NCBI GenBank assembly: GCA_021794075.1
Contig: JAJYRM010000013.1
Location: forward strand, 1-56,352
Reading direction: 5' to 3'
Length of the DNA stretch: 56,352 nt
Source: Bacteroidota bacterium
Lineage (GTDB): Bacteria > Bacteroidota > Ignavibacteria > Kryptoniales > JAKASW01
Shown here piece after piece: positions 13,672 through 31,288 of this stretch; position 1 is the stretch's first letter, and each line of letters starts with the position of its first letter. Position numbers and translations under genes: made by a program. Below the pieces are notes generated by a model, which was given only the letters and a program-made list of their open reading frames with translations, was not told the DNA's origin and ran no database searches.

Positions 13672-16600
13672 ATGAGAAAGGTTGTGCTCGCCGTCTTAAT
13701 TCTTGCGTCGGCATTCCCGCTTGCTGCCCAGGAATTTGGCAAGAACAAAGTTCACTACGTTACCTTTAAGTGGAGCTATATCAAATCTCCTCACTTCAAT
13801 GTTTACTTCACGAAGGGTGGATACCTGCTCGCCGAGTTTGTTGCGGTCGAGGCAGAGAGTTCGCTCGCGTCGATTGAAGAGAGTTTTCACTATCAGATTA
13901 ATAAACGTATCGACCTAACGGTGTTCAATTCGCACAACGATTTCCAACAGAACAATATTATCTCTGAGTACTTGGGCCAAAGCACCGGCGGTGTCACAAC
14001 TTTATATAAGAACAGGGTGGTCTATCCATGGGACGGAGACCTTAGCCTTATGCGTCACGTGATCCACCACGAGCTGGTGCATGCCACGTTTAACGAAATG
14101 TTTTACGGCGGTTCTGTCCAGGCGATGATAGAACATGACATCACGTTCCAGCTCCCGACGTGGTTCAATGAGGGGATGGCGGAGTATCAATCTCTCAACC
14201 ACTGGGAGGTGAACTCCGACCAGTTTCTGATGGATGCGACGATCAATCACTACATGCCGCCGATTGATTACCTGCAGGGATTCTTATGGTACAGAGGGGG
14301 AGAATCCGTCTGGCACTATATCGATGTCACTTACGGCCATCAGAAAGTGGGAGAGATTGTAAACGCGGTCCTCGCGACACACAGTGTGAACAAAGGTCTC
14401 GAGAGGGCTATCGGGCTCAACCTGGACCAACTGTCCGATGCGTGGCACGAATACAACCGAAAGCAGTATTATCCTGAGGTGGCAGAGAGACAGGCTCTCT
14501 CAACCTTCGCCAAACATGTGACGAACCATTTGGAAGACGGGAGCTCTTACAATACTTCGCCCGTCATTTCCCCGGATGGGAATTTGGTGGCCTATATTAC
14601 CGACCGCACAGGATTCTTTGACGTAGTTCTCGCTTCCACGGTAACCGGCAAGGTAATACGAACTTTAGTGAAGGGAAGCCGCACGGCGAATTTCGAAGAG
14701 CTCCACCTTCTTAATCCCGGCATCGCATGGACGCCGGACGGGAAGTACATCGCCGTGGTGTCCAAGACGGGAGAGTACGATGACGTCTTCATGATTAACG
14801 TCAGGACGGGGGCGACCAAGGAGCTTCCCGGACTGAGTCTCGACGGGATAAAGGGCATTAATTTCTCTCCGAACGGGGAAGAACTGGCGTTGTCGGCCTA
14901 CGAACCGCTCCAGTCGGATATATACTTGTACAACATGAAGACACACAAGCTGCGGAACCTTACCGACGATATCTTCAGCGACGAGCAGCCGCACTGGTCT
15001 CCTGACGGTAAGGTAATCTATTTCACGTCCGACAGGGGGGACAGTCTTAACCAGGACGGAAGAAATCCGCTCCCTCTTGCTCACTGGGCGGCGGGAAATC
15101 CTTGGGACATATTTTCGATAAACGTGGCGACGGGTAAGATAGAAAGACTAACTTATACTAATTTCCCGAACACGCCTTGGGTCGTACCCCACGGAGGGGG
15201 CGATCAGTATCCGCTCCCGACAGTTAATGGAAAGGGATTGATTTTCGAATCCAGCCGGAACGGCATCGATAATTTGTACTATTTGGATTTCGCCACCAAG
15301 AAAATTGTCCCGCTGACCAATTCGCTCGACGGGATCAACCAGCCGTCGATGTCCAAGAATGGAGAGAAGATTGCGTTCACGTCGCTCAATGACGGCGGCT
15401 ACGATATTTTTACGATGGACCTTCCGCTGAAGCATAAATTCAGCGGCCCGCTGAAGCCGACGAAGTATGTAAAATCTTTCTTTGCGAAACTTGAACTGGC
15501 GCAGCACAAGGACACGACATCAACGAAATCGACGAGCCTTGCCTCCTTGTACGGCATGTCGGTGACGTCGGATTTCAACCACTACGTCTTTTCACCTTAT
15601 TACAACCAGACCACCCACAAGAAGCCAAAAGTTTCCCCCTTCCTTCTCAAAGGCAACGTCGACTCATTGGGGGAATATTATGTCTATCCCTATAAGGTGG
15701 ATTTTTCGCCTGATATCATTACAGGAGGAGCCGGCTTCAACACGTTCTACGGCTTCCAGGGGGCAACAGAACTTGCCTTCAGCGATATGCTCGGTAACAA
15801 CGAGGTTGATCTGTACACGGATTTTCAGATTGATTTGCAGAACAGCGACTACGCAATTTCATACGCCAACATGGCATCCAGGATAAACTACGGTGTCGAT
15901 CTTCTTCACACTGCGAACTTCCTGTATCTATATGACAACACAACCGGTTACTACGAACTCAACCGTTTTCAATCGCTAATAGGTCAGCTGAGCTTCTCAC
16001 GTCCATTCGATAGGTTCAGGCGGCTTGATCTCAATGTGGCCTACGTCGGAATAAACGAGCAGAACATAGACAACCCAGCCATACCAAGCGCTTCCGCAAA
16101 CGCGGCACTGATCTCACTTGACTACGTCAAAGACAATACGTTGGCAGGATATTTCGCTCCGGTTGCCGGGACTAGATACGAAGTAACGCTTTCACTCGTA
16201 CCGAAGATCGCACCTAGCTTTCTCGGATTTGAGACGCTTGGATTTGACTGGAGGAAGTATCTTCCGTTCTGGAATGAGAACGTCTTTGCTGTGAGGTTCT
16301 CCGGAGCAGCGAGCACCGGGCCGAATCCGCAGAAGTTCTTCATGGGCGGCGTGAGTAACTGGATCAACAGAAGTTACGCGACACAGCTGATTCCGATCAG
16401 CAGCGTCGCAGACTACGCTTTCCTAACACCTGTATTCCCGATGAGAGGATACAGTTACGACGCTCAGCTCGGAACAAACTACTTCCTAGCTAATATAGAA
16501 ATCAGATTCCCTCTCGTGCAGTACTTTGTACCTGGTTTGATCCCAATACTACTTTCCAACATAGAGGGAGTGATTTTCACAGACGCGGGAAGCGCGTTCG

Positions 16601-16797
16601 ATTCCTTCTCAAGCTATAAACCGTTTATGAAGAGCCCCTCGGGCGCTCTCGTGACGCAGGATCTCCTGATAGGATCTGGTTTTGGAGCAAGAGTCCCTTT
16701 TTTGTATTTTGTCCTGAGGTTTGACGAAGCTTGGCAGTATGACATCCAGGGATTCCATAATCCGACGTTCTATTTCTCGCTTGGAGGCGACTTCTAA
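13672..16797 (+). CDS. Zn-peptidase / PD40 propeller / outer-membrane barrel fusion protein
   Basis: 1041 residues with a signal peptide (about 1-20, ending PLAAQ). Residues about 25-280 resemble a gluzincin-type peptidase domain: HELVH at 133-137 and WFNEGMAEY with Glu167 as the likely third zinc ligand. Then come about six TolB/PD40-type repeats with SPDG-like turns (roughly 290-590). The last 390 or so residues are amphipathic, aromatic-rich strands ending in the LRFDEAW...FSLGGDF style of BamA-like (surface antigen) barrels. It is probably anchored in the outer membrane with the peptidase and propeller domains exposed. AAGGA precedes the ATG. It overlaps the next, PorV-like gene. Substrate and activity are unknown. 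Confidence 0.8.
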   Translation: MRKVVLAVLILASAFPLAAQEFGKNKVHYVTFKWSYIKSPHFNVYFTKGGYLLAEFVAVEAESSLASIEESFHYQINKRIDLTVFNSHNDFQQNNIISEYLGQSTGGVTTLYKNRVVYPWDGDLSLMRHVIHHELVHATFNEMFYGGSVQAMIEHDITFQLPTWFNEGMAEYQSLNHWEVNSDQFLMDATINHYMPPIDYLQGFLWYRGGESVWHYIDVTYGHQKVGEIVNAVLATHSVNKGLERAIGLNLDQLSDAWHEYNRKQYYPEVAERQALSTFAKHVTNHLEDGSSYNTSPVISPDGNLVAYITDRTGFFDVVLASTVTGKVIRTLVKGSRTANFEELHLLNPGIAWTPDGKYIAVVSKTGEYDDVFMINVRTGATKELPGLSLDGIKGINFSPNGEELALSAYEPLQSDIYLYNMKTHKLRNLTDDIFSDEQPHWSPDGKVIYFTSDRGDSLNQDGRNPLPLAHWAAGNPWDIFSINVATGKIERLTYTNFPNTPWVVPHGGGDQYPLPTVNGKGLIFESSRNGIDNLYYLDFATKKIVPLTNSLDGINQPSMSKNGEKIAFTSLNDGGYDIFTMDLPLKHKFSGPLKPTKYVKSFFAKLELAQHKDTTSTKSTSLASLYGMSVTSDFNHYVFSPYYNQTTHKKPKVSPFLLKGNVDSLGEYYVYPYKVDFSPDIITGGAGFNTFYGFQGATELAFSDMLGNNEVDLYTDFQIDLQNSDYAISYANMASRINYGVDLLHTANFLYLYDNTTGYYELNRFQSLIGQLSFSRPFDRFRRLDLNVAYVGINEQNIDNPAIPSASANAALISLDYVKDNTLAGYFAPVAGTRYEVTLSLVPKIAPSFLGFETLGFDWRKYLPFWNENVFAVRFSGAASTGPNPQKFFMGGVSNWINRSYATQLIPISSVADYAFLTPVFPMRGYSYDAQLGTNYFLANIEIRFPLVQYFVPGLIPILLSNIEGVIFTDAGSAFDSFSSYKPFMKSPSGALVTQDLLIGSGFGARVPFLYFVLRFDEAWQYDIQGFHNPTFYFSLGGDF

Positions 16798-17896
16798 ACC
16801 CGCGCAAGTCGCGCTTGTAATTGTGATTCTTACCTCCGCCTCGGCATCGGGACAGTCGATGTTTCTGGGCGGAGGTTACGTTTTGGGGAACAGGGCCGCG
16901 GGAATGTCGGCGTATGTGGCCGACCCTGATTTCGCGCACGCTGTCATCCTGAACCCGGCGAAGCTCAGTTTCGCCGAAACTGTCTACGCAGCGAGCGACT
17001 ATGAATATTTTTCCCGCGATGTCGGACTTCTTTTCTTACCATCCACCCCTTCAGACTATTTATCAAGCGGCGAGTTGAGTGCATGGGACGCGTCATTTGC
17101 GATGCCGGTCGGTCCGGTGGGAGCAGGCGCTTCCTTCAGTGCGTTCGATCTGGCCGGTTGGAGGACTACGTTGTCCGCCGTTGGTGCGGCAGTGCGCATG
17201 CCATTCGGCTTTTCACTAGGCGTGACGGGCAAATATATAACTCTCAGACGGCCCGAGGTGATACCGGGCGGTATGGGAAAATCGAGCTTTGAGAAATTCA
17301 CGTTCGATCTCGGCGCGATGAACCGCGCCGTATTGGCGAACACCACCTTTTTCCAGGCGATATTGTCTTCAGGGGTAGTCTTTTCCAATATCCTGCCCGG
17401 GGTTACCTGGACTCAAGACGGAGCGTCGAGCGGAAATTTGCTAAACACTCCGGCGAATTTGCCCCAGACTTTGCAGTGTGGCATCGCGTATACGTTTGCC
17501 TCGAACTATCGCTTGTCCGACTTCGAGCTTTTCAGGGTGACTGGGGCGATAGATTATTCGCATCTCTTCAGTAAATCTTCCCCAATTGATGAGTTCACTT
17601 TTCAGCGCGATCAATACAGGATAGGTGTCGAGACCGTTGCGCTCGGCATACTCGCCGTTCGTATAGGGTATACGCTCAAGACTCCGGTCGTAATGGGAGA
17701 AGACCTTTACAACAACCTGACCATTTCTCGAATGGGCTCAGGTGTCTCATATGGATTCTCTCTAAGATTCCCGGTGAAACTTGTGTTACCGGCATTGCCG
17801 GTAACGTCAATGGAGTTATCCTACGCTAAGAATCCGGAGTGGAATTCAGGAGCGTACCATGATTTGTTCGGTGTAGTGATGGAAATGTTGTTCTGA
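16739..17896 (+). CDS. PorV/OmpP1-like outer-membrane barrel protein
   Basis: About 385 residues. A hydrophobic signal segment (ALVIVILTSASASGQ) is followed by a GNRAAGMSAYVADPDFAHAV...LNPAKLSF motif. That corresponds to the glycine-rich 'abundant NPA' start of PorV/PorQ and FadL-like barrels. The rest is alternating hydrophobic strands ending in VVMEMLF with a terminal Phe, typical for an outer-membrane barrel. It overlaps the end of the peptidase-propeller-barrel gene by about 59 nt if ATG 16739 is used; TTG 16781 would give a shorter, cleaner signal peptide. The pair probably acts together, but the exact function is not known. Confidence 0.65.
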   Translation: MTSRDSIIRRSISRLEATSKPAQVALVIVILTSASASGQSMFLGGGYVLGNRAAGMSAYVADPDFAHAVILNPAKLSFAETVYAASDYEYFSRDVGLLFLPSTPSDYLSSGELSAWDASFAMPVGPVGAGASFSAFDLAGWRTTLSAVGAAVRMPFGFSLGVTGKYITLRRPEVIPGGMGKSSFEKFTFDLGAMNRAVLANTTFFQAILSSGVVFSNILPGVTWTQDGASSGNLLNTPANLPQTLQCGIAYTFASNYRLSDFELFRVTGAIDYSHLFSKSSPIDEFTFQRDQYRIGVETVALGILAVRIGYTLKTPVVMGEDLYNNLTISRMGSGVSYGFSLRFPVKLVLPALPVTSMELSYAKNPEWNSGAYHDLFGVVMEMLF

Positions 17897-27209: not shown

Positions 27210-28205
27210 TTATGAAATAGTGAAGGGAGTTGGTGAAAAGGAGACAACGAATATCAGTATCGTCAGCCACCCGATGATCATCCTTTTTTTATCAAGCGGA
27301 GTGGTATCCATGACCGGCGGGTGATCGAGCTTGACGACGAAGAAGAGAATGGCACACCAGAATAGCCAGCCCGTCCATCCGAAGTTGATATTCACCCCGA
27401 CCAGAGGAAGAAGGCCTAGAATACCTACGGCGAGGATGATGAAGAAGAAAACACGCGCGACCTTCTTGTGAGCTTTCCCGAACATCGCGTAAATCATGTG
27501 CCCGCCGTCGAGCTGTCCGATAGGGAGCAAGTTCATCGCGGTGACGAAGAGTCCGAACCATCCCGTGCAGAGTAGGGGGTAGTGATAAATCTCTGTCATT
27601 GGAGGGACGAACTCAGTATGCGGGTTTGTGAAGAGCACCTCGAGAAGCTTAAACAGGATCGTGTTTCCAAAAGCCAAGGGTATACCATCCACGATGCCGG
27701 ATGAATTGGTTGAAAAGTTATAATCCGGGTGAATCTGCAAGATGTATTCGCGTGAAGGCAAATGAGTGAAACCGATTATCAGGACGGCGACGCTGACGAT
27801 GAATCCGATAATCGGGCCGGAAACTCCTATGTCGAATATCGCTTTGCGGGATGGCACAGGTGTCTTTGTTCGGATGATAGCGCCAAGCGTTCCAAAGTTC
27901 AGCATGCCAGGGATGAAAGGGAAGGGGATGAAATAGGGTAACGTGGCGCGTACTTTATGTTTCAATGAATAGAAAAAATGTCCGAACTCATGCGAGCCAA
28001 GTATCGCGAGAAGGGATACGCTGTAAGTCAAACCGTAGGCGAAGTTCAGAAGGTTAAGAGGATCTTTTCCGATCCACTCGACTCCTGCGAGTGTGGTTGT
28101 GAAAAAAGTTATGAGGAAAAGGCCGGCGTGAAGAGGAAGCTTCAGTTCCCGCCATGAGATAGAAAACGTGTCCAAGTCTTCCAGTCTCTGCCAATATTCC
28201 GACAT
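27210..28205 (-). CDS. Site-2-type membrane metalloprotease (peptidase M50)
   Basis: 331 residues, several membrane segments, and the two zinc-binding signatures of M50 proteases: HEFGH at 72-76 and LDGGH near residue 233 (following MNLLPIGQ). No PDZ domain is present, so it resembles the short archaeal/cyanobacterial branch rather than RseP. These enzymes cleave substrates within the membrane. Target unknown; it lies between a lipoprotein and a glycosyltransferase, starting immediately at the upstream stop. Confidence 0.88.
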   Translation of the reverse strand: MSEYWQRLEDLDTFSISWRELKLPLHAGLFLITFFTTTLAGVEWIGKDPLNLLNFAYGLTYSVSLLAILGSHEFGHFFYSLKHKVRATLPYFIPFPFIPGMLNFGTLGAIIRTKTPVPSRKAIFDIGVSGPIIGFIVSVAVLIIGFTHLPSREYILQIHPDYNFSTNSSGIVDGIPLAFGNTILFKLLEVLFTNPHTEFVPPMTEIYHYPLLCTGWFGLFVTAMNLLPIGQLDGGHMIYAMFGKAHKKVARVFFFIILAVGILGLLPLVGVNINFGWTGWLFWCAILFFVVKLDHPPVMDTTPLDKKRMIIGWLTILIFVVSFSPTPFTIS

Positions 28206-29309
28206 TCAGTATTTTCGTCCCTTCCATGTGATTGCCTTCCCGAGGTATACCGAGAACGGCAGAAGCGCTACGTAAACCAGATAATAAATCTCAAAATAAA
28301 CTATGAATTTCAAGTGAACAATCTTTCCATAAAACCTCAAGGTCGGGAATACGAAGAGTGCGTCAAGAATGGTTTTCACAAGGAGGAAAAGGGGCAACGT
28401 AGCGGGCGAAAGAACAGCGCTGAGTATGATGCTCCAATTGAGGAGGAACCCGGGGGCGAGAGTGGCGATTCCGAAAAAGCCGGTCTCTTTTCCTCCGGTT
28501 GCCCATCGCTTCCTTTGCGCGAAGACTTGCTTCAGCGATGTCACCGGGAGCGTCTCGACCAGTGTTCGCCTGTCCATGGGATAACGGTAATCCCACCGCC
28601 CCGATTCAGCGATTGCTTTGAAGAGCGCGTAATCCTCTGTGACACTGAACCTGATCTTGCGATAGCCTCCCACATCCTGGTAGGCTTTCATTCTGAACGC
28701 CAGGTTGTTTCCAAGACACGCCAGAGGTTTCCTTAGTGTCGCTGCTCCGGCGCCGATGCTCAGGAGAAAATCCCAGTCGAGCGTCTGAATGCCTGATAGT
28801 ATGTCATCGGCTTTTGAGATCAGCGTCACCCCGCCGACGATACCGGTATTCTCCTCGAAATATTTCAGCATCCCGCTTATCCATGTTACCGGTACGGAGC
28901 AATCGGCATCAGTGAGGAAAATGAATTCTCCGTGTGCGCTGTCGATACCTTGGCTGAGAGCATTGGCTTTCCCTCGCATGTCGGTTCCATCTACCGCGTC
29001 AACGCGACGGACGAAATCGTAATTGTGCGAGTATCCGTTAATGACGGCGGGTGTGCTGTCGCCGGACTGGTCGTTAACTACTATTATTTCGAGGAGATCG
29101 ACCGGATAATCTACATTGACAAGAGATGCGAGGCAGGCCGGAAGATTTTCTTCTTCATCTTTTGCCGCAACAACCACGGATACTTTCGGAAGTGTCCTGA
29201 ACGGGTAAGGACCTTTTCGGGTTCGTCTCGCAAGGCGGGCGGCAAATGAGTAGAACGCGAGCTCTACCAAATAGAGAACTCCGAGGATTAGTAGAAGGAG
29301 AGTCAGCAT
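28206..29309 (-). CDS. Membrane-associated family 2 glycosyltransferase
   Basis: About 367 residues. One N-terminal membrane helix, a GT-A catalytic domain with VSVVVAAKDEEENLPACL, the metal-binding LTDADCS (DxD-like), an ED near residue 226, and the QRKRWATGG motif of processive and polyprenol-phosphate transferases. Several C-terminal membrane segments follow. It overlaps the DUF2723 gene by 1 nt (TGATG); a GTG three bases earlier is possible. It is a plausible maker of polyprenyl-phospho-sugar or a glycolipid for its neighbours; this is inference. Confidence 0.85.
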   Translation of the reverse strand: MLTLLLLILGVLYLVELAFYSFAARLARRTRKGPYPFRTLPKVSVVVAAKDEEENLPACLASLVNVDYPVDLLEIIVVNDQSGDSTPAVINGYSHNYDFVRRVDAVDGTDMRGKANALSQGIDSAHGEFIFLTDADCSVPVTWISGMLKYFEENTGIVGGVTLISKADDILSGIQTLDWDFLLSIGAGAATLRKPLACLGNNLAFRMKAYQDVGGYRKIRFSVTEDYALFKAIAESGRWDYRYPMDRRTLVETLPVTSLKQVFAQRKRWATGGKETGFFGIATLAPGFLLNWSIILSAVLSPATLPLFLLVKTILDALFVFPTLRFYGKIVHLKFIVYFEIYYLVYVALLPFSVYLGKAITWKGRKY

Positions 29310-31288
29310 CACTTTTTCCGAAGTTGCTCGATAATTTGTGCCTCGGCGGCCTGGACGGCCTGAAGAGAGGGATTTACCTCAAGAGCTTTCCTAAGCCACG
29401 CAAGCGTGCGATGCAGGTGTTTGAACGCATATTCATACTGGGCACGAACAATGAACATGCGCTCGTAGAAACCTAATATCTGCCGAGTATAGTCGTTGTG
29501 AATCTTCTGGGCCGCTCTAAAACCGTTGAGCCCCGCCTCACCGAATGGCACGTACGTAGTGTCTTTGGTTAATTCGTACAGCAATCCGTACGGTACTTTC
29601 TTGTACCCGTACAAATATTTGTCTTCAATCTCCGGCCCCACAAAAACTTGCCGCCTGTCCCGGATCGCTCCGGAAATTATCTCTCTTATATAATCGGAAT
29701 AAGTGTGCTGAATGCTGCTCGGGTCGTACGGCAGGCCGTTCTCGAAAAGCCGGAGGTTCTCCTGGTACGCGCTGTAAATGGGATCGTCTGCCGGGAAGAG
29801 GAAAGGATACCTTTCATGCACCTGGGCAGCGTACCATGAACGCCTGAGGAGCTCTTTATCGATAACAATTACGTCCGGACGAACTTTGTCGACATGCTGG
29901 TAGTACAATGAACCCGCGACCCAATCGTCCCACTGGAAGGAAAGGATCACGGAATTGTGAGGAACGCTCGTCAGTATGTCCCTCGTGTACATTTCTACCG
30001 CGAAGTCGTTGTGCCTGTCGACTTTCGAGAAATTCTCCGCGGCGGAAAAACCTGGGAAGATCAAAAGCGCCGCGAGAGCGACAGCCCTAAGGCGTTTTTG
30101 TGAGACAAAACGCCGGAGGACGAACCGGAATCCTATAGCACCGAGCAGGGCGAGCGAGATGTATGCAAGGAGGAAATAGCTTGAGATGTTGTGAATACTA
30201 TAGTTGGTCGCGTAAACTAGATCGCCCACGAGGAGAAGGAGGGTCCACCAGAACAACTTCCGTTGATAGATGAAGGATACGAACACTCCGGCGAGTATGA
30301 AGACCAAGGCAATCCTGTATTCAATGTACAGTGACGAGATGAAGACCCAGAATTGATGTTTGAATACCGCGAACGAACTGAACATCCAGGTATTAAATTG
30401 CTTTCCCGTAACCTGCCAGATGAACCTCTTGAAAGTATCCGGGTTCCCCCAGTTCATTAGCGGATTTTGTGACGCGCGAATGGGAAGATAGAGATAAAGA
30501 AACCCGGCGAGGAGTCCTCCGCATAAAGTGTAAAGTATTAGCCTTGGACTGAACTTCGTGTTCCTGTATTTGAGTACAGCGAGAAAAATGAGAGCTGGCA
30601 AAGTTAGGATCGTGGTCATGTGGTTGGTGAAGCCTAGGCCGAGGGCAAGCCCGGCGACAAACGCGCTTGACTTCTTTGGACTTGCGTAAAGGCCTAACCA
30701 GGTAAACATGATGAGTGAGAATAGGATAAGCTGTAGCGAGTATGACTCGACGCGAGTGCTTTCATCCCAGAACGTGAGAGAGAAGACAAGAGTGAAGGCC
30801 GCTATCAATGAGCTCCACCGGACAATGTCCTCGTTGTAGGAAGAGACGATGCGCGAGCTTTGCGATCCCTTAACGCTTCCGGACTTCTGCGCTTGCTTCG
30901 TTTCCCGCAAAGCGAAGACAGTTTGTGCCCTGAAGAAAGCGAGATACACGATGCCCGCGGCGATCGACGTACACAGCGCCGCGAACAGGTTGGCCCGCAT
31001 GGCGACTTCGGGAAGGATGGGGATATGGACGAAGAGATAGCCGAGCAAGGTGTAAAGTGGATAACCGGTGGGATGAGCTATTCCGAGTGTCCACAGGTCG
31101 GTTGTAAGTTCTCCTCCGTCTATATAGGGGATGCTTCTCGACATCGTTTGAATATAGATTAGGAAGGAAAAAGCAGCCACGATAGTTGAGATGAGAATGT
31201 CCTGCCGCGCGACCGCTATCGATGGACACCCGACGTTTTCTTTCCCAGGCGCGCGGGAATCCGACGCCCTCTTCCTTGATCCCTTCAA
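29309..31288 (-). CDS. DUF2723 membrane protein, putative protein O-glycosyltransferase
   Basis: 659 residues. The first half is a bundle of about ten membrane segments starting with ILISTIVAAFSFLIYIQTMSR and the DUF2723 signature DGGELTTDLWTLGIAHPTGYPLYTLLG. The soluble second half (from about residue 430) resembles the periplasmic part of GT-C transferases and ends in a tetratricopeptide-like helical stretch. DUF2723 is shared with the animal O-mannosyltransferase TMEM260. A role in glycosylating exported proteins is therefore likely but unproven. The TTG start has GGAGG nearby. Confidence 0.82.
   Translation of the reverse strand: MKGSRKRASDSRAPGKENVGCPSIAVARQDILISTIVAAFSFLIYIQTMSRSIPYIDGGELTTDLWTLGIAHPTGYPLYTLLGYLFVHIPILPEVAMRANLFAALCTSIAAGIVYLAFFRAQTVFALRETKQAQKSGSVKGSQSSRIVSSYNEDIVRWSSLIAAFTLVFSLTFWDESTRVESYSLQLILFSLIMFTWLGLYASPKKSSAFVAGLALGLGFTNHMTTILTLPALIFLAVLKYRNTKFSPRLILYTLCGGLLAGFLYLYLPIRASQNPLMNWGNPDTFKRFIWQVTGKQFNTWMFSSFAVFKHQFWVFISSLYIEYRIALVFILAGVFVSFIYQRKLFWWTLLLLVGDLVYATNYSIHNISSYFLLAYISLALLGAIGFRFVLRRFVSQKRLRAVALAALLIFPGFSAAENFSKVDRHNDFAVEMYTRDILTSVPHNSVILSFQWDDWVAGSLYYQHVDKVRPDVIVIDKELLRRSWYAAQVHERYPFLFPADDPIYSAYQENLRLFENGLPYDPSSIQHTYSDYIREIISGAIRDRRQVFVGPEIEDKYLYGYKKVPYGLLYELTKDTTYVPFGEAGLNGFRAAQKIHNDYTRQILGFYERMFIVRAQYEYAFKHLHRTLAWLRKALEVNPSLQAVQAAEAQIIEQLRKK

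Follow-up and report, generated by a model that had tools for sequence, protein, structure and literature searches.

A predicted gluzincin-type metallopeptidase joined to a TolB-like propeller and an Omp85-type barrel in Bacteroidota, with apparent active and pseudo-peptidase branches

The window, a stretch of 56,352 nucleotides of Bacteroidota DNA, carries a forward-strand gene at 13672..16797 that encodes, on the evidence of its open reading frame, profile matches and a structural model, a protein of 1041 residues consisting of a signal peptide, a peptidase domain, a propeller and an Omp85 barrel. This is the 1041-residue frame that the first-pass annotation had delimited. A Sec-type signal peptide (residues ~1-20; 13672..13731, +) was read by eye from a hydrophobic core and a cut site preceded by small residues, without a lipobox Cys, and the model places a helix at residues 2-13. 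The mature N-terminus bears a conserved motif, FGKNKVHYVTFKW (residues 22-34; 13735..13773, +), identified in a 52-row alignment, and opens a Peptidase_MA_2 or gluzincin-fold domain (residues 22-288; 13735..14535, +; Pfam and fold search). Within this domain, alignments locate HELVH at residues 133-137 (14068..14082, +), which supplies Glu134 as the catalytic residue along with two of the predicted Zn ligands, and NEGMAE at residues 166-171 (14167..14184, +), in which Glu167 is predicted to provide the third. The numbering first assigned to His133, His137 and Glu167 is correct, and all three residues are invariant in a 27-row alignment that includes the window protein.

The peptidase domain is followed by a six-bladed TolB-like PD40 propeller (residues 293-583; 14548..15420, +; profiles, model and Foldseek), a linker of mostly low model confidence whose length varies among relatives (residues 598-670; 15463..15681, +; alignment and model) and an Omp85-type 16-stranded barrel (residues 679-1041; 15706..16794, +; NCBIfam, model and Foldseek). 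In alignments, MRGY (residues 924-927; 16441..16452, +) falls at the position of the Omp85 loop-6 (V/L)RG(F/Y) motif, and Arg925 and Gly926 are each present in 99 of 103 rows. Where about six PD40-type repeats had been proposed from the sequence, six blades can be counted at 293-583 in the AlphaFold2 model; the BamA-like C-terminal barrel, on which the first-pass reading depended, is also seen there, with a match to the BamA fold and 16 strands counted at 679-1037 once three 3-residue strands are omitted. The junction between propeller and barrel is modelled as coil and short helices.

In line with this layout, the whole protein matched the Pfam PD40 family over four stretches (3.2e-21) and Peptidase_MA_2 below its cut-off (2.9e-5), and no POTRA family appeared among its seven Pfam matches at E <=1. 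The peptidase domain of the window protein, searched in isolation, matched Peptidase_MA_2 at 5.3e-7 with 30.1 bits against a gathering threshold of 32.4, and all 27 aligned domain members matched this family at E <=0.01 (best 1e-16). NCBIfam added TolB-type propeller matches as well as weak TamL, Omp85-family and BamA matches between residues 829 and 1038. The full-length AlphaFold2 model, built on 27 aligned sequences, has a pLDDT of 73.8 and a pTM of 0.51, so that the relative placing of the domains is uncertain; Foldseek matched it to TolB (3.2e-13) and to Flavobacterium johnsoniae BamA (4.6e-11). The architecture match lies far beyond chance, and we hold the domain architecture of the window protein to be secure with great confidence.

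A profile of the peptidase domain found no match among PDB sequences at E <=1, so that a fold search was needed. Modelled separately (residues 22-288; pLDDT 78.5, pTM 0.79), the domain was matched by Foldseek to M1 aminopeptidases (best 3.4e-5) and M9 collagenases (best 1.2e-4). Its best VIA-align partner was a Grimontia collagenase (Z 17.0, rmsd 3.6, 228 residues aligned), with M30 lugdulysin at Z 15.9 and M1 aminopeptidases at Z 15.4 at best, on a scale where mostly helical models may score Z ~14 by chance; judged by title, the best 50 structures listed are enzymes of M1, M9 and M30 type. In the AlphaFold2 model, HELVH lies within helix 124-145 and Glu167 within helix 163-174, and the predicted shared Zn site rests on this location of the ligands in the expected helices together with the fold match. 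Membership of the M9 collagenases or M1 aminopeptidases at the sequence level was ruled out on the absence of PDB matches and on sparse, weak Pfam matches (M9 in 2 of 27 members, best E 0.0085; M1 in 1 of 27, best E 0.0052).

We then looked at how widely this protein occurs. The family was matched at E <=0.001 in all 100 class genomes and in 377 of 395 phylum genomes, several families among them matching by the PD40 part only. Across both genome tables, of which the phylum table scored just the two best candidates per genome, 55 of 61 family codes include at least one genome with a profile E <1e-40. Six families (f32, f33, f36, f41, f54 and f61) have no genome at that level, and scoring all candidates in one or two genomes of each, with a second profile (A2, below) for f33 and the first profile for the other five, gave partial matches or none. 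Our guess is that these six perhaps include better-studied families, which may be why the family has been overlooked so far. Further, more distant paralogues are present in many class genomes. One of these is a third copy in the genome of the window (contig C55, ~27714-29513, -), where an open frame of 1064 aa contains HEFTH and PAWFAEG; similar frames of ~955 aa and ~33% identity occur in several class genomes (loci L061, L070 and L075).

The genome of the window encodes two full-length copies, the window copy and one on contig C38. In an 85-row tree (LG+G4, quick method, SH-aLRT support only), window-type and C38-type proteins are joined within the genus with support of 98, and the window type has a stem length of 0.86, compared with 0.35 for the other type. 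The genus members G005 and G007 have the C38 type only among the matches listed. Given the longer stem and the joining within the genus, the window gene is best read as a fast-evolving, diverged duplicate at genus level, outside the tamB cluster described below, and it may have changed its client.

To follow the active site through the family, 153 loci were reduced to 129 frames exceeding 850 aa and 100 bits and then to 103 distinct rows including the window protein. His133, Glu134, His137 and Glu167 are all intact in 96 of these 103 rows, a share that is biased upward because the profiles that retrieved these rows were built from active members. The seven exceptions comprise an N-terminally cut protein (L131), a different PD40 protein judged to lie outside the family (L121) and five true members without the site, and two more members of the last kind were recovered from f42 and f31 (L154 and L155). 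Profile A2, which was built from the seven dead rows and the window protein and favours the dead type, was searched against 35 further genomes and gave full-type matches in 28 of them, with short matches or none in the remaining seven. HExxH is absent from all 24 full-type matches in f31, f40, f43, f44 and f51 and kept in all four from f28.

The 31 rows without the site (from f31, f40, f42, f43, f44 and f51) lie on one side of a single branch with support of 100 in a 52-row tree, so that active-site status changes once on this tree, which was computed from propeller and barrel columns only by a quick method with no bootstrap and no inferred root. This site-less clade, sampled by 31 proteins from six families, retains all three parts, and at least one f40 genome (G128) encodes both forms (L113 active, L157 dead). 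Peptidase_MA_2 is still matched by just one of seven dead-clade proteins (7.5e-4). The best reading of these alignments is that active and pseudo-peptidase forms both exist in the family, and since relatives keep the architecture without the active site, a protease reading cannot by itself account for the family.

The same 52 rows, from active and dead clades alike, share the motif at the mature N-terminus. Its family pattern is F-G-x-N-[KR]-x-x-Y, within which FGxN[KR] is near-invariant: Phe/Tyr22, Gly23 and Lys/Arg26 are each found in 52 of 52 rows and Asn25 in 49 of 52. As AlphaFold2 confidence is low at residues 13-28 (pLDDT <50), we infer that this motif is a candidate docking peptide.

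A survey of the gene neighbourhood in relatives, which the first-pass annotation had suggested, revealed a tamB-rnr-gene order that recurs in part of the class. We examined 48 loci, made up of 28 loci of a first set and 20 larger ones picked for diversity. The first impression from the 28 loci was that no conserved neighbourhood exists, their flanks (up to 6 kb) being genus-specific, with rplI-ssb-rpsF in seven and a few carrying genes of MoxR and M16 type, as identified by reading the sequences; this impression was overturned by the tamB-rnr-gene order in the larger loci. A TamB-like gene, an RNase R gene and a family member follow one another on the same strand in 10 of the 48 loci (L010, L021, L192, L193, L194, L196, L197, L198, L208 and L209), with intergenic gaps down to a few bases in L196. 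The TamB family PF04357 is matched in L010 and L194. The TamB-like proteins beside RNase R in L196, L208 and relatives escape this Pfam model and are caught by DUF748 or AsmA instead.

Across the class, the position of the canonical copy was entered for 94 of 100 genomes, with the C38-type copy used for genus members and six genomes omitted (G008, G019, G059, G068, G090 and G093), the matches listed for these being fragmentary, distant or not displayed. In 30 of the 94 genomes (f4, f6, f10, f12, f13 and f17) the canonical copy is the gene immediately 3' of rnr, counting same-strand pairs only and with rnr as the upstream gene in all 30, although these pairs are not independent and would be equally numerous if a single ancestral order had persisted across many lineages. 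A PF04357 tamB stands upstream of rnr in 16 of these 30 genomes. The tamB-rnr pair is itself recurrent in class genomes (44 pairs with rnr after tamB), often without the family gene, and since rnr is a housekeeping gene, the linkage to rnr may be inherited gene order. The triple is also found outside the class, in two f38 genomes (L208 and L209); neither tamB nor rnr was seen at three dead-clade loci with larger flanks (L205-L207).

In the genome of the window itself the genes are unlinked, the window copy and the C38 copy lying on contigs other than those of tamB (C189) and rnr (C90). The window copy is flanked by a CNNM/GldE-like gene on its upstream side and by a PorV/PorQ-family gene on its downstream side, both identified by NCBIfam matches below curated cut-offs. 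The latter gene (16721-17896, +; NF033709, 1.1e-12, below cut-off) lies immediately 3' of the barrel gene; the TTG listed as its start lies inside the 3' end of the peptidase-barrel gene, and its true start is therefore probably later. This genome also encodes a TamL-like protein (C78:26786-28603; L217) with an E of 4e-57 and 193.6 bits where the cut-off is 400, which gives TamB another candidate partner. The TamL model is matched at E <=0.001 in 41 of 41 genomes and exceeds its cut-off in one of the 41, some of these matches being other Omp85 barrels, such as those of the window family.

It seems reasonable to suggest, as the most likely mechanism, albeit tentatively, that the protein serves as a factor in outer-membrane assembly or quality control, anchored by its own barrel and facing the periplasm. 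After Sec export, the C-terminal Omp85 barrel would insert into the outer membrane, with the peptidase domain and the propeller beneath it in the periplasm. This periplasmic placement is suggested by analogy, since the available text of PMC11116518 describes POTRA-type N-terminal domains of Omp85 proteins as facing the periplasm and the enzyme domain of PlpD as periplasmic. The propeller, TolB- or BamB-like, would probably dock a partner or client, and the short N-terminal motif would offer a second candidate docking site. Held at the membrane, the putatively zinc-binding and proteolytic peptidase domain would probably cleave outer-membrane clients that are immature or wrongly assembled, or else a partner with a regulatory role, and the whole would thus work in a BepA-like manner, as a quality-control protease of BepA type fused to its own barrel platform and serving the TamB/BAM assembly pathway. 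Both the presumed outer-membrane clients and the proposed link to TamB are parts of this model. The architecture, the wide occurrence, the 96 of 103 intact sites, the rnr/tamB linkage and the analogies with PlpD and BepA favour an assembly factor; the unlinked copies in the genome of the window, the tamB-rnr pairs that lack the family gene, the TamL-like alternative, the dead clade and the pTM of 0.51 speak against it. An earlier suggestion of a self-anchoring surface or periplasmic metalloprotease with a built-in binding propeller thereby survives as a self-anchored predicted metallopeptidase with a propeller, but its "surface" option finds no support, given the orientation of POTRA domains and the case of PlpD.

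The main rival to this reading, which we think rather unlikely, is that the peptidase domain serves mainly for binding or as a scaffold while the propeller and barrel do the conserved job, with catalysis an accessory that one lineage has lost. Such a history accords with a single site-less clade in which 31 proteins from six families retain all three parts. The best conserved part of these site-less proteins is the dead domain, with a mean pairwise identity of 37.0% compared with 34.8% for the barrel and 29.2% for the propeller, so that the peptidase domain probably has a function besides catalysis. However, the peptidase domain is top-conserved among active rows as well (41.2%, compared with 34.3% for the propeller and 30.8% for the barrel), and the retention of the four site residues across deep divergence on the window's side (96 of 103 rows) points to selection on catalysis there.

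Two further readings keep the protease and change its target. In one, a signalling or maturation protease would cleave a single dedicated partner in the periplasm or outer membrane, and the duplicate would serve a second, for example the PorV-like neighbour; the PorV/PorQ-family gene directly 3' of the window copy recurs in 9 of the 28 first-set loci (L001-L009), all of them window-type copies, but none was seen at the remaining 19 of these loci or at the 20 larger ones, the C38 copy of the same genome included, and we find this reading improbable. In the other, the N-terminal domains would pass through the barrel or alongside it to reach the cell surface and would act on external proteins there. 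Surface placement was once proposed for PlpD, and the 2014 classification raises it for enzyme-bearing Omp85 proteins (section 10 of PMC4104836), but for PlpD a periplasmic enzyme domain was reported (PMC11116518, in the text available), and the very different host genomes and the partial tamB linkage fit envelope housekeeping better. A surface protease is thus less likely than a periplasm-facing factor, and we would give it very little weight.

Returning to the assembly or quality-control factor, its boldest extension, an unlikely one in our estimate, would be a phylum-wide, unnamed outer-membrane assembly machine composed of TamB and a single polypeptide of barrel, propeller and BepA-like protease, one branch of which had become a pseudoprotease that binds without cutting. 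The 2014 classification gave the propeller and barrel without a known role, and the peptidase domain, the dead clade, the wide spread and the tamB linkage now make of this curiosity of annotation a candidate for outer-membrane quality control that can be put to the test. The existence of active and dead forms provides a natural experiment on the purpose of the peptidase.

Among known systems, the gluzincins (M9 collagenase, M30 lugdulysin and M1 aminopeptidases) share with the window protein the gluzincin fold and an HExxH motif with a downstream Glu, the features by which it is assigned to this group. BepA of Escherichia coli belongs to a different peptidase family, M48, has to our knowledge neither barrel nor propeller, and acts at the separate BAM complex; membership of M48 was ruled out, as that family is not among the Pfam matches at E <=1. 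The proposed likeness is that of a Zn metallopeptidase working in the periplasm alongside the machinery for outer-membrane assembly, BepA being described in the available text of PMC8423444 as acting on LptD at BAM. BamA membership was excluded by the lack of POTRA domains and an NCBIfam BamA score of 14.7 against 1050 bits. With TamA and TamL the family shares the Omp85 barrel and, in many relatives, linkage to tamB, and TamL is its best Omp85-type NCBIfam match (3.2e-7); membership was nevertheless ruled out, as POTRA domains and a Cys at the signal cleavage site are absent and the score is 29.2 against 400 bits. A role as a TamA substitute was considered because of the tamB linkage, and is weakened by the TamL-like protein in the genome of the window and by the missing POTRA and lipobox. 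Bacteroidota tamL and tamB do not share one operon according to the available text of PMC12045153, which gives a tamL2-tamB2 pair for some species, and the main text of PMC4494059, consulted on tamB operons, mentions neither WD40 nor Ignavibacteria. A known extra BAM subunit of Bacteroidota was rejected as well, since none of those listed for the F. johnsoniae complex (BamA, D, G, H, M and P) is described with this architecture in the available text of PMC12611786, in whose main text "peptidase" and "propeller" do not occur and "protease" occurs twice. The propeller resembles TolB by sequence (1.6e-14) as well as by fold and differs from TolB and BamB in being fused to a peptidase and a barrel; a TolB equivalog was ruled out at 122.3 against an NCBIfam cut-off of 343.15 bits.

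We take PF00149 to be a metallophosphoesterase domain. This is the domain that defines the "Omp85-metalloprotease" or "Metallo" group of 2014 (PMC4104836, section 10), whose label may therefore be a misnomer. PlpD-type patatin-Omp85 proteins resemble the window protein in combining an enzyme with an Omp85 barrel in a single polypeptide, and differ in having a patatin-like enzyme and a POTRA domain, no propeller being mentioned for PlpD in the available text of PMC11116518. In the open-licence literature, covered mostly through titles and the beginnings of abstracts, we found no prior description of the three-domain architecture, and PMC4104836 alone, in the sections available, was directly relevant. 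The first-pass annotation knew of no assigned role for the family, which holds for function, but the combination of propeller and barrel had already been classed in 2014 as the WD40-Omp85 subfamily named by Heinz and Lithgow (PMC4104836). As in that subfamily, a TolB-like propeller precedes an Omp85 barrel with a loop-6 RG(F/Y) motif in the window protein, without POTRA domains. The metallopeptidase before the propeller sets the window family apart from the paper's description, in whose main text the word "peptidase" does not occur, and its occurrence is wider than the genus-level, HGT-like pattern given there for the minor Omp85 subfamilies collectively. The family fits WD40-Omp85 by every feature tested, and to that description the present analysis adds the peptidase domain with its apparent active/dead split, the site-less clade, a wide spread in the sampled phylum, the rnr/tamB linkage and the FGxN[KR] motif.
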